64,000 nt of DNA from Asticcacaulis machinosus (GTDB lineage Bacteria > Pseudomonadota > Alphaproteobacteria > Caulobacterales > Caulobacteraceae): NCBI RefSeq assembly GCF_028550435.1, contig NZ_JAQQKV010000001.1, positions 496,001 through 560,000 of the forward strand, in the 5' to 3' direction. Every line of letters starts with the position of its first letter. Positions within the stretch are counted from its first letter, which is position 1. Below the pieces are notes generated by a model. The model did no database searches and was not told where the DNA came from. It saw nothing but the letters and a program-made list of their open reading frames with translations. The position numbers and the translations under genes were made by a program. Shown here piece after piece: positions 12,172 through 55,410 of the stretch.

Positions 12172-13299
12172 TTAAGCTGATTTTTTACGGTGATAGCCAT
12201 TTTTGACAAACGGCAAGGTAACTATGGTGCATGGATAGGCCTTACCGCGCACATCCCACGTCAATTTTGTCCCTACCTCTGAAAAAGCTGGTGGCACATA
12301 GCCCAGGGCGATCAGCCCCCCCGCTGAAGGTGACGGCCCTCCAGAGGTAATATAGCCAATCTCTTCGCCAGCCTCATTGAGGATTTTGGCACCTTCACGG
12401 GCGGGCGGGCCCGCCTCCCCTTTCAGGGCGACACGCACGCGCGTCAAACCACCGTCAAGCTCAGGTTTCAGGCGGTCAAAGCCCAAAATATCTCCGGCCT
12501 CCAAGCGTGATTTTGACATGGCAAAACCGAGATTGGCCTCGGCCAGACTATAGCCAGTATCCATCTCGTGGCCATAGAGCGGCATTCCGGCCTCTAAGCG
12601 CAGGCTGTCGCGCGCCCCAAGCCCAATGGGCTTCACAACCGGATCAGACAGCAAAGCATCCCACAATTCCGCGACCTGATTTTCATGGACTGAAATTTCA
12701 AAACCATCTTCGCCGGTGTAGCCGGAGCGGGAAATATAGACCGTATGCCCCTGCCAGATGAACGTACCGCAATCCATGAAGTACATGTCGCAAGCTGCCG
12801 GAATGATGTTGGCCATCACATCCTTGGCCTTTGGGCCTTGCAGGGCCAGCAGGGCACGGTCGCTTAAGATCTCCAGCGAGGTGTCGCCCTTAAGGTTCCG
12901 ACCGATATAGGCGAAATCCTGATCTTTGCAGCCGGCATTGACCACCAGAAACAAGCCGTCAGCTTCCGGACGTGACACCATCAGGTCGTCAAGTATGCCG
13001 GAATTATCATTGAGTAGCAGCGAATATTTTTGGCGGCCCGCTTTTAAAACCTTGAAATCCGTCGGTGTCAGCGCCTCAAGCGTGGCAATCGCGTCCTTGC
13101 CCTTCAAACGCGCCTGCCCCATGTGCGACACATCGAACAGGCCACATTCGGCGCGTGTCCATTTGTGCTCCCCCAGCACGCCGTCATACTGCACCGGCAT
13201 GGCATAACCGGCAAACGGCACCATGCGCGCACCCAGATCAACGTGGCGCTGATAAAGACGGGTATATTTCAGTGTCTCAGTATTTGGGGCGTCAGCCAT
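12172..13299 (-). CDS. gcvT: Aminomethyltransferase (T protein)
   Basis: A 375-residue folate-dependent enzyme that releases ammonia and makes methylene-THF from aminomethyl-GcvH. Family landmarks are [36 protein letters not shown] and [13 protein letters not shown]. The frame is open further upstream to 13389, but that extension lies in the riboswitch. The ATG at 13299 has GAGG 7 bases upstream, so it is taken as the start. It is the first gene of gcvT-H-PA-PB and is expected to be switched by glycine. Confidence 0.95.
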
Positions 13300-13366
13300 G
13301 AGCAAACCTCGGTCAACAGGCGCGAATGCGGGATCACAGAACAATGCGTAGTTCTGCCCCCGCTGT

Positions 13367-13592
13367 CCATTGAACCTGAGAGATTTCAACCCCTGTTAGC
13401 GGCAGGGGTCTTGCTCCTTCGGCGGATCATCAAAGCGTATTTTTGAGCGAAAAACCGGTATCCACTTTTTCGCAAAATGCTCAGACGATCACTTTCCAGC
13501 GTTTAGCATATCGTGCGGTCCGTGGTGCCTGAGCGTTTCCGGGGCGGTTGCGCCTTCGGCGTTGCGAGTCATGCCCGCAATCTCTCCCGCAT
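13367..13592 (-). promoter_or_regulatory. Tandem glycine riboswitch upstream of gcvT
   Basis: On the minus strand, aptamer I runs from about 13592 to 13501: GCGGGAGAGA, a hairpin, ACGCCGAAGGCGCAA and CTCAGGCACCACGGACCGC. Aptamer II runs from 13500 to about 13367: GCTGGAAAG, CGCCGAAGGAGCAAGACCCC, TCTCTCAGGTTCAATGGACAGC. These match the conserved core of glycine riboswitches, and the terminal GCTG/CAGC forms P1 of aptamer II. Position ahead of the glycine cleavage operon fits an ON switch. Aptamer II carries an inserted repeat between GATC at 13490-13487 and GATC at 13428-13425. Confidence 0.92.
13435..13484. repeat. Palindromic repeat (GAAAAGTG/GGTTTTC type) inside the riboswitch
   Basis: The core has GCGAAAAA and TTTTTCGC arms around GTGGATACCGG (minus strand). 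It belongs to the same family as the element at 54319-54361 and, with a wider centre, the one at 13689-13750. Similar elements are common between genes in alphaproteobacteria (recalled knowledge). Confidence 0.65.
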
Positions 13593-13635
13593 GATATATC
13601 TCGCTTGTGCGATATACACCGTAAAGAGTCAAGCG

Positions 13636-13676
13636 CTAGAGCCAATTTCATCTTATTGAAACGAAATCTGGCTCTA
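13636..13676. repeat. Palindromic repeat with TAGAGCCA ends
   Basis: Arms TAGAGCCAATTTC (13637-13649) and GAAATCTGGCTCTA (13663-13676) are complementary except for one extra base. It lies between the riboswitch and the NYN gene, beside a second palindrome that also ends in CTCTAG, so the two may form one composite repeat. Confidence 0.65.
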
Positions 13677-13688
13677 AGTTTTTTTGGC

Positions 13689-13750
13689 GCAACGTTTTTT
13701 GCAGAAAACCCCAAAGACCGAATTTGGCACTTTTCTGCACGTTGCTCTAG
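13689..13750. repeat. Palindromic repeat ending in the NYN gene stop codon
   Basis: Nested arms GCAACGT/ACGTTGC and GCAGAAAA/TTTTCTGC enclose CCAAA/TTTGG. On the minus strand it reads GCAGAAAAGTG ... GGTTTTCTGC, like the other GAAAAGTG/GGTTTTC elements in the window. Its outer end CTAGAGC contains the TAG that stops the NYN-domain gene at 13747-13749. Confidence 0.6.
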
Positions 13751-36722: not shown

Positions 36723-36746
36723 GTGTCTTTGCTTTTTTGAAGACAC
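36723..36746. other. Hairpin, possible part of a short RNA
   Basis: GTGTCTT (36723-36729) pairs with AAGACAC (36740-36746) over a T-rich loop. A terminator follows 20 bases later. It could be the 5' hairpin of a short RNA of about 70 nt or simply part of the hydrolase 3' UTR. Confidence 0.3.
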
Positions 36747-36765
36747 CCACCATCACCAAACTTTT

Positions 36766-36794
36766 AAAGCCCGAAGTCTCTTCGGGCTTTTTTT
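36766..36794 (+). terminator. Intrinsic terminator after the SGNH hydrolase
   Basis: AAAGCCCGAA and TTCGGGCTTT arms around a 5-base loop are followed by more T. It sits about 130 bases after the gene stop. Confidence 0.85.
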
Positions 36795-53688: not shown

Positions 53689-54303
53689 CTACCCAAACAG
53701 CGTCTGGTACATCGCCATAACCGCCAGCATCGGCAGCGACAGCAGCACATTTATGCGTGAAAACCGCATGGCTTTTACGGAAGCCGCAGCCTTGGCTTCC
53801 GGCGTCGCCTCACGGATACCCAGCGCAATCCTCTGGGCCGGCCAGATGACATGCCAGACGTTGAAAAACATGATCAAAGCCAGCCACATGCCGATACCGA
53901 TAAAGGCCAGCGGCAGATCGGCTGGGCTGAAACCACCGGCAAACCCGAAACTCAAAGCCTCAGCAATATAGCCCCGCGCCCAGGCCAGCCCCAAACCAGC
54001 GATCACGGTAAACAGGGCCGAATAGCGGAACCAGAACAGGGCTTCGGGGGCAATATACTTCGTCACAGCCGGTTTCATTTCGGCCGGAATTTCGGGCATG
54101 ACCCGCATCTGCACGAAATTGAAATAGTATAGTAAGCCGACCCACATGATGCCGAAAAGCACATGCAGCCAGCGTAAAACTCCGTGCAGAAAGATCAGAT
54201 CAAACCCGCCCGCACTGTGCATGCCAAGGCCTACGATCATGATGATCGCCAGCACCAGACTGAAAATCAGGGTCGCCGTCAGATTATTGAGAATTTTCAG
54301 CAT
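53689..54303 (-). CDS. Urate_ox_N-like membrane protein
   Basis: A 204-residue four-to-five-helix membrane protein. WLHVLFGIMWVGLLYYFNFVQ and FFNVWHVIWPAQR resemble the N-terminal domain of the urate hydroxylase PuuD (Urate_ox_N). The cytochrome part of PuuD is absent here. ATG 54303 is used because the upstream frame would read into a palindromic repeat. Role unknown; lies 9 bases after the preceding minus-strand gene. Confidence 0.65.
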   Translation of the reverse strand: MLKILNNLTATLIFSLVLAIIMIVGLGMHSAGGFDLIFLHGVLRWLHVLFGIMWVGLLYYFNFVQMRVMPEIPAEMKPAVTKYIAPEALFWFRYSALFTVIAGLGLAWARGYIAEALSFGFAGGFSPADLPLAFIGIGMWLALIMFFNVWHVIWPAQRIALGIREATPEAKAAASVKAMRFSRINVLLSLPMLAVMAMYQTLFG

Positions 54304-54318
54304 AGTCCCGCCCCCTAA

Positions 54319-54361
54319 GCGCATCCCGAAAAGTGTAAAGCGGTTTTCGGCCAAGATGCGC
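54319..54361. repeat. Palindromic repeat (GAAAAGTG/GGTTTTC type)
   Basis: GCGCATC (54319-54325) pairs with GATGCGC (54355-54361), enclosing CCGAAAAGTG ... CGGTTTTCGG. Same family as 13435-13484. It lies between secF and the urate-oxidase-like gene. Confidence 0.75.
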
Positions 54362-54372
54362 GTTAAATTTAG

Positions 54373-54421
54373 AAACCTGCGGTCAGCATAAGGTATTTCA
54401 CCCCAAACTGACCACAGGTTT
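54373..54421 (-). terminator. Long hairpin after secF
   Basis: AAACCTGCGGTCAG and CTGACCACAGGTTT pair over 13 of 14 bases with a 21-base loop. On the minus strand it comes just after the secF stop and is followed by TTTCTAAATTTAA, so it is a likely terminator of secDF. Confidence 0.62.
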
Positions 54422-54432
54422 ATGAATAAGGC

Positions 54433-55410
54433 TTAGCGTTTGCCTTTGAAACCACCCATATCAACGATTTCAGCGTCCGCATCGCTGCGGTTCACGCCCC
54501 AGATCAGAATGACGGGGGCAGCCACATAGATCGACGAATAGGTGCCGACAATGATCCCGAAGATCAGGGCAATCGAGAAACCAAACAGCGCCTCGCCGCC
54601 CAGCACCGCCAGGCCGACCAAGGCGCCCACCGCCGTAATGCCGGTCATGATCGTGCGCGACAAGGTTTCATTGAGCGAAAGGTCAATCACATCGGCCAGC
54701 GGCATCTTTTTGTATTTACGTAAATTTTCGCGCAGCCGGTCGCAAACTACGACGGTATCGTTCATCGAATAGCCGATAATCGTCAGGATCGCCGCCACCG
54801 CCGTCAGCGTAAATTCCAGATTAAACAGGGCAAACAAACCGAACGTCAGAATCACGTCGTGCAAAAGGCCCAGAGCCGCCCCCACCCCGAACTGCCATTC
54901 AAAGCGGAACCAAATGTAGACCATCATCAGCAGGATGGCGAAAAACAGCGCCATAACGCCGCCAGTCAGCAGTTCACCGGACACTTTTGGCCCCACGACT
55001 TCGGTCCGGGTAAACTGAGCGCCTTCGAATTTACCGGACAGGTGAGTTTTAATCTCATCAACCTTCTGAGCCGGGTTACCGCCTTCGGGGGTTTCAAAGC
55101 GGATCATCGCCTCGACATTTTTCCCCCCATCGCCCTGAACCTGAACGTCATGCAGCCCTTCGGCATCATTCAAGGTGTCGCGAAGAGCGCCCAGATCGAT
55201 AGGCTGGCCGCCGCGGTTCATATCAAGCACCGTACCGCCCTTGAAGTCGACACCGCAGTTTAGGCCACCACACGGTCCTTCAAACGGGATAAGCACAGAT
55301 GCGATCGAACCGATCACTAAAACGACCGACAGGATCGCAGCGAACTTTGAGAAAGCGACAAAACGAAAATTCGTTTTCGCCGGCAGTAATTTGATAAGTG
55401 GCCAAGCCAT
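54433..55410 (-). CDS. secF: Protein translocase subunit SecF
   Basis: A 325-residue six-helix partner of SecD that uses the proton gradient to help Sec export. N-terminal CGVDFKGGTVLDM, then MNDTVVVCDRLREN and LSRTIMTGITAVGAL are typical. It follows secD by 13 bases. Confidence 0.96.
   Translation of the reverse strand: MAWPLIKLLPAKTNFRFVAFSKFAAILSVVLVIGSIASVLIPFEGPCGGLNCGVDFKGGTVLDMNRGGQPIDLGALRDTLNDAEGLHDVQVQGDGGKNVEAMIRFETPEGGNPAQKVDEIKTHLSGKFEGAQFTRTEVVGPKVSGELLTGGVMALFFAILLMMVYIWFRFEWQFGVGAALGLLHDVILTFGLFALFNLEFTLTAVAAILTIIGYSMNDTVVVCDRLRENLRKYKKMPLADVIDLSLNETLSRTIMTGITAVGALVGLAVLGGEALFGFSIALIFGIIVGTYSSIYVAAPVILIWGVNRSDADAEIVDMGGFKGKR

Follow-up and report, generated by a model that had tools for sequence, protein, structure and literature searches.

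The second aptamer of a tandem glycine riboswitch in Asticcacaulis machinosus carries, in its P2 hairpin, one arm of a dispersed palindromic repeat of the CIR type (CcrM-associated intergenic repeat). The same insert is found in a single group of five Asticcacaulis genomes, and the predicted pairing of the aptamer core is essentially the same with it as with a short loop in its place. Very probably, a CIR arm landed in the P2 loop in the ancestor of these five species and now forms a self-contained, structurally silent P2 hairpin on a riboswitch that still works as usual.

The tandem riboswitch and the site of the insert

The window, which here means the whole stretch of 64,000 nucleotides that was analysed, holds the riboswitch on its minus strand ahead of the glycine-cleavage operon. 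Both aptamer cores are present and in the right order in the sequence, as the initial annotation had it. The features of the leader and its surroundings are the following:

13506 to 13599, minus strand: glycine riboswitch aptamer I (Rfam RF00504, 64.2 bits, cut-off 32)
13361 to 13501, minus strand: aptamer II from P1 to P1, CGCTG at 13501-13497 with CAGCG at 13365-13361 (MFE folds)
13484 to 13490, minus strand: 5' side of the P2 stem, GATCGTC, pairing with 13425-13431 (probability at least 0.96 for the five outer pairs)
13429 to 13486, minus strand: 58-base insert between both GATC tetramers, mostly CIR A-arm (repeat match and model R2)
13425 to 13431, minus strand: 3' side of the P2 stem, GATGATC (GACGATC in four sister genomes; one G-U pair here)
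13414 to 13423, minus strand: 5' strand of P3 of aptamer II, GCCGAAGGAG (comparison with genus relatives)
13374 to 13382, minus strand: 3' strand of P3 of aptamer II, CTCTCAGGT (comparison with genus relatives)
13328 to 13363, minus strand: probable expression platform, a GCGGG/CCCGC hairpin overlapping the 3' strand of P1 (anti-P1; putative function, MFE folds)
12172 to 13299, minus strand: gcvT, first gene of gcvT-gcvH-gcvPA-gcvPB (Pfam GCV_T, GCV_T_C)
13626 to 13632, minus strand: TTGACTC, probable -35 element overlapping a GANTC (CcrM) site (putative role)

The open reading frames after gcvT match GCV_H, GDC-P and GcvP2_C (Pfam), and the riboswitch thus stands ahead of glycine metabolism genes; the gene before it encodes an NYN domain (Pfam). 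MFE folds of the 24 genus leaders show the same GCGGG/CCCGC hairpin for the five genomes that carry the insert, and for the remaining 19 a pairing of the G-run whose register varies. TTGACTC is kept in 23 of the 24 genus leaders, and through its overlap with GANTC the gcv operon might respond to methylation or to the cell cycle. Elsewhere in the window, a match to the CC0196 sRNA (36734-36791, Rfam, 40.1 bits) is flanked by two tRNA matches.

Read on the minus strand, aptamer II contains GATC (13490-13487), 58 further bases and a second GATC (13428-13425), which together sit between J1/2 (GGAAAG) and CGCCGAAGGAGC. The arms of the insert are GCGAAAAA at 13473-13466 and TTTTTCGC at 13454-13447, and the initial annotation had given the 58-base insert, its arms and the two GATC tetramers exactly, both in letters and in coordinates. 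Its assignment of the insert to P3 was mistaken. In the Rfam layout P3 is the CCGAAGG..CTCAGG helix, and the hairpin between J1/2 and CGCCGAAGG is P2, which rules out P3 as the site of the insert; the TTGCG/CGCAA hairpin of aptamer I, also named P3 there, is likewise P2. The proposed pairing of GATC with GATC does occur, within a closing stem that is longer than proposed and comprises, in the fold, the 7 bp of GATCGTC/GATGATC.

Outside the insert, the core letters of aptamer II follow in order as GGAAAG, CCGAAGGAGC, CTCTCAGG and GGACAGCG, and in the 19 genus relatives whose aptamer II holds no insert the P1 letters are invariant and those of P3 nearly so. Five genus members (L017, L020, L025, L033 and L035) have an aptamer II without the outer P3 hairpin (GGAGCAAATCTCTCAGG).

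The insert also affects how the aptamer is recognised by covariance models. Against RF00504, aptamer II of the window scores 22.3 bits, under the cut-off of 32, with a match that begins within the insert, and no second RF00504 match in the window genome is among the matches listed in the genus-wide searches. The full-score Infernal hit that the initial annotation had looked to is obtained in the four sister genomes, where aptamer II with its insert scores 43.5 bits over 162 bases (by score and length), and not in the window. Despite these 43.5 bits in the RF00504 search, aptamer II of the four sisters is absent from the cmscan output at Rfam cut-offs. The match of R1, a model of the genus, also begins inside the insert in all five inserted genomes (46.5-52.4 bits), because the insert stretch CGCT..AAAAATG resembles CGCTGGAAAGTG. 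Since cmscan at Rfam cut-offs reports one aptamer here and in the four sisters, tandem riboswitches may be miscounted as singlets.

A score under the Rfam cut-off, together with an insert stretch that mimics the 5' strand of P1 and J1/2, could also be taken to mean that the insertion weakened or inactivated aptamer II and that the switch now relies mainly on aptamer I. We regard such damage as very unlikely, given that the letters of P1, J1/2 GGAAAG, P3 and CTCAGG/GGAC are preserved in all five genomes, although the window and its sisters differ at 12-15 other riboswitch bases, that the inserted sisters reach 43.5 bits, and that the true P1 dominates the fold ensembles of the inserted aptamers with pair probabilities of 0.97 or more.

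Identity and mobility of the repeat

Perfect hairpins with 8-bp arms number 44 in the window and 7-24 in ten mononucleotide shuffles, and 8-bp arms alone are weak evidence for a repeat. What stands above chance is a 98% identical 43-base genomic copy together with the match to a CIR model. The copy, found by a genome search with E 1.2e-14 (G000:C1:988586, G000 being the window genome), is part of a complete two-arm element that consists of CTAGAGC, arm A, the linker TCAAAACAAAA, arm B with GATTC, and CTCTAG. The model, R2, was made from 14 full copies of 12 genomes, with no copy from the window among them, and 13 of its 29 predicted pairs show double-sided change. It matches three places in the window:

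13431 to 13485, minus strand: CIR A-arm within aptamer II, B-arm missing (29.1 bits, E 1.1e-5 over the window)
13636 to 13750, minus strand: full two-arm CIR upstream of the riboswitch (56.9 bits, E 6.1e-13)
54314 to 54418: weaker third CIR-like copy (27.4 bits, E 3e-5)

The third of these follows closely on the end of a 325-aa ORF (54433-55410, minus strand) and overlaps the TTG start of a 221-aa ORF (53689-54354, minus strand).

Full copies have two arms, a linker, TA termini and GANTC at the terminal loop of one arm, over about 110 bp. By the R2 match, the insert holds the A-arm only, not two arms and a linker. There is no GANTC in the insert; GANTC lies inside nine of the 30 CIR copies of the window genome that were examined. 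At its left end the insert has CTGAGC, as against CTAGAGC or TAGAGC in most full copies, and its right end is lost, the corresponding bases of the four sisters (CCACTANTTTTGA) having no visible match to CIR. Without such a match on the right and with the B-arm missing, neither the precise limits of the insertion nor a target duplication can be read. Judged by its sequence, the insert is one CIR-type arm, the label being taken from anatomy, host group and GANTC rather than from a published sequence.

A long P2 might instead have grown gradually as a native stem, with the likeness to CIR a matter of coincidence or of shared composition. The length of aptamer II does vary without any CIR, over 69-107 bases in the 19 uninserted relatives, and two members of the same family (G113 and G129; loci L078 and L079) have a longer P2 without CIR letters. 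However, neither growth nor composition can explain 98% identity over 43 bases at E 1.2e-14 alongside the independent R2 match, and we consider the chance of a native origin practically negligible.

The repeat is widely dispersed. In the window genome R2 has at least 47 matches at E 0.001 (150 candidates out of 1587 were scored), and 80 of 119 family genomes contain matches to it; CIR matches by BLAST amount to 215 when summed over the rows of the 25 genus genomes, with none in G009. Thirty of the at least 47 matches were examined, the full copy beside the riboswitch being the thirtieth, and at the 29 other loci no Rfam RNA overlaps a CIR copy, a result that is weak because that Rfam scan also misses the interrupted aptamer II. 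The RNAs that do occur within 1.5 kb of those 29 loci are two tRNAs and one suhB-type sRNA.

Filled and empty sites are consistent with movement of the element. A full CIR occupies one locus common to G000, G005, G013 and G020, and the same locus in G017 is empty. Comparison of the filled site, AAAATCGAT-T-CTAGAGC...GCTCTAG-C-ATCGAT-GGCTA (L044, G000), with the empty one, AAAATCGATGGCTA (L095, G017), makes ATCGAT a candidate 6-base target duplication in this one case. A few other CIR copies have CGAT or TCGA beside the left end. Further, of the five genomes with the insert, the window genome alone has the full CIR at 13636-13750; in the alignment the four sisters lack it. Only 3 bases separate the end of this copy from TTGACT, and the NYN gene upstream (ORF end 13747) takes its TAG stop codon from the CTAG of the copy.

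Distribution and origin of the insert in Asticcacaulis

RF00504 was found in 24 of 25 genomes of the genus. Aptamer II spans 145-150 bases in five of the 24 (G000, G005, G013, G017 and G020), all with the insert, and 69-107 bases in the other 19, none of which has it. Relatives of the same length without palindromic arms, which the initial annotation had named as counter-evidence, are not among the 24; the other four of similar length share the arms. The flanks of the insert, CGCTGGAAAGTGAT and ATCCGCCGA(A/C)GG, match P2 in five of the 19 uninserted relatives (G004, G008, G015, G019 and G021).

The five genomes with the insert make up one side of a branch in a GcvT tree, with a support of 100/100 (24 rows, cut to 330 residues, with a downstream start taken for G016); the tree is midpoint-rooted for drawing only, and the five are a clade only if the root falls elsewhere. 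One ancestral acquisition is the simplest account, because the five carriers group together in this tree. A mobile CIR-type arm would then have entered the P2 loop of aptamer II in the ancestor of the five species, presumably by transposition.

A pattern scan of contigs returned two loci, both in Asticcacaulis and both with the insert (A. endophyticus and Asticcacaulis sp. UBA2476). Among the 44 distinct loci from 299 genomes of the order and 385 of the class, which are overlapping samples, no CIR-bearing aptamer II was found outside the window genome, by scans that required exact TGGARAG and GCCGAMGGRGC, that miss aptamers with ACCGACGG (nine of the 19 uninserted genus members) and that, for the 299 genomes of the order, are blind to the longer spacer of the sisters.

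Predicted folding and the slow change of the insert

The MFE fold contains P1 (CGCUG/CAGCG), the 7-bp closing stem of P2, a single long hairpin formed by the arms, and P3, with fold z-scores of -2.72 for the tandem leader and -2.92 for aptamer II. In the 19 uninserted relatives (18 of them distinct), P2 shows double-sided change at five of five counted pairs, with 98.9% of cells able to pair, and over the whole structure 99.7% pair as against 32.0-46.2% in slid controls.

In the five genomes with the insert, mean pair probabilities are 0.99 for P1, 0.98-0.99 for P2, 0.28 for inner P3 and 0.94 for outer P3. When the insert is replaced by each of three tetraloops, the values are 0.99, 0.96-0.99, 0.28 and 0.92-0.94, such that the means for P1, P2 and P3 differ by at most 0.03 in all five sequences. 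The folding program misses part of the core, since inner P3 reaches only 0.28 with or without the insert. On these predictions, the CIR arm is insulated from the core, and a stable stem-loop with an unaltered core fold is what a variable insertion in a riboswitch is expected to present. The proposal of the initial annotation that a mobile-type palindrome lengthens one hairpin loop in aptamer II and spares the predicted core is borne out to this extent, and 19 of the 24 riboswitches in the genus do without the insert. The uninserted relatives vary widely in the same probabilities (P1 0.26-0.99, P2 0.01-1.0); many of them fold less well than the inserted five, which fold equally well with the insert removed. 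A role of the insert as a folding aid is ruled out on prediction, short loops giving equal probabilities.

The insert has changed slowly. Over the ten pairs of the five genomes, 0-4 of its 58-65 sites carry substitutions, and the window copy additionally has a 7-base deletion; outside the insert the riboswitch has 0-15 substitutions in 174-175 sites, and fourfold sites of gcvT differ by 0.23-0.39 in the same pairs. Such slowness set against the divergence of gcvT could suggest that the CIR arm has been co-opted as a working part and is kept by selection, be it as a hairpin that binds a protein or RNase, as a nucleator of aptamer II folding, or as a pairing site for CIR-bearing transcripts. All five genomes share the first 23 bases of the insert (alignment columns 16-38) without a single difference, and the deletion and substitutions of the window copy preserve the 7-bp closing stem, as co-option would have it. 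However, an orthologous intergenic CIR shared by four genomes is equally slow, with 0-2 differences in 106 bases versus 15-38 in each 300-base flank; moreover, the insert brings no gain in predicted core pairing and 19 of 24 relatives manage without it. We therefore hold co-option to be unlikely.

Because an intergenic CIR changes slowly too, the conservation of the insert is no proof of a role in the riboswitch, and purifying selection as such a proof is ruled out. Selection, repair or conversion may underlie the slow change of CIR, which is not attributable to the riboswitch. A second control, the A-only copy of G013 and G005 (0 of 62), has flanks that are nearly identical too and is hence uninformative.

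For the preferred reading, that of a structurally silent arm in P2, the following course of events can be proposed. The RNA would gain a long, self-contained P2 hairpin because the arm folds on itself, and this hairpin would lie outside the aptamer-aptamer contacts (P1 and P3). Glycine, if its binding is retained, would stabilise P1 of aptamer II, which would compete with the downstream GCGGG/CCCGC hairpin before gcvT. Where P1 is favoured, the start region should be freed and the glycine-cleavage operon turned on, as the anatomy of the leader suggests, with the CIR arm carried on P2 and having no role.

A second, trans-acting input to the riboswitch through the CIR arm is conceivable, because the palindromic arm nearly repeats in other genomic copies, and we rate it as highly improbable. 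If true, CIR-bearing transcripts, or a protein or RNase that recognises the arms, could bind the P2 hairpin, and expression of the glycine operon would be tied to a genome-wide set of CIR-bearing RNAs.

Relation to known systems

Tolerated hairpin insertions in riboswitches, a variable P2 and CIR elements are already known; an identified mobile source of a hairpin inside a structured RNA is new. In our judgement, the origin of stem-loop inserts in riboswitches can seldom be traced. The case of these five related genomes points to a plausible source: a small mobile palindrome, which supplies a ready hairpin without altering the predicted core. In the titles and opening lines of abstracts listed by literature searches, two of the lists covering the best 20 of 261 and 20 of 514 results, and subscription journals falling largely outside, no report of a riboswitch containing a CIR or another mobile repeat was found, and the available part of PMC6944388 contains nothing on insertions in glycine aptamers.

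Like the tandem glycine riboswitches of gcv operons in RF00504, the present one has two aptamers with conserved P1 and P3 cores ahead of gcvT. It differs in that P2 of aptamer II bears a CIR arm, with 145-150 bases instead of 69-107. A preprint on the Vibrio cholerae riboswitch describes, in its accessible text, inter-aptamer contacts in P1 and P3 and variable P2 and P4 (PMC12060979).

Barrick and Breaker (2007), as far as the available text goes, describe riboswitches that carry long stem-loops at tolerant sites with the core undisturbed, and note that some such matches score low in covariance searches (PMC2258182). The present case resembles these variable insertions in its long stem-loop at a tolerant site and its low covariance scores. 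While the accessible account gives no origin for them (PMC2258182), here the stem-loop derives from a dispersed repeat with traceable copies in the same genome.

Moreover, the BOX and SPRITE repeats of Streptococcus pneumoniae are mobile and have been discussed as possible RNA regulators, and the repeat itself is said, in the part of the source at hand, to hold T-box-like or terminator-like motifs (PMC10969869), whereas here a CIR is lodged in an existing riboswitch.

Finally, the CIR of Chen and Shapiro, as summarised by Delihas, is a multicopy element of about 110 bp with two arms, a linker, TA termini and GANTC in a terminal loop (PMC2229807), and the full copies described here share this anatomy with the CIR of Caulobacter and Brucella (PMC2229807). 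Its hosts are Caulobacter, Brucella and other alphaproteobacteria (PMC2229807, PMC10969869). In the accessible portions of these sources, CIR elements are called strictly intergenic (PMC10969869) and are said not to be found intragenically (PMC2229807). In contrast to the intergenic copies described there, the present copy, of a kind called strictly intergenic, lies inside a structured cis-regulatory RNA, as one arm and without GANTC.
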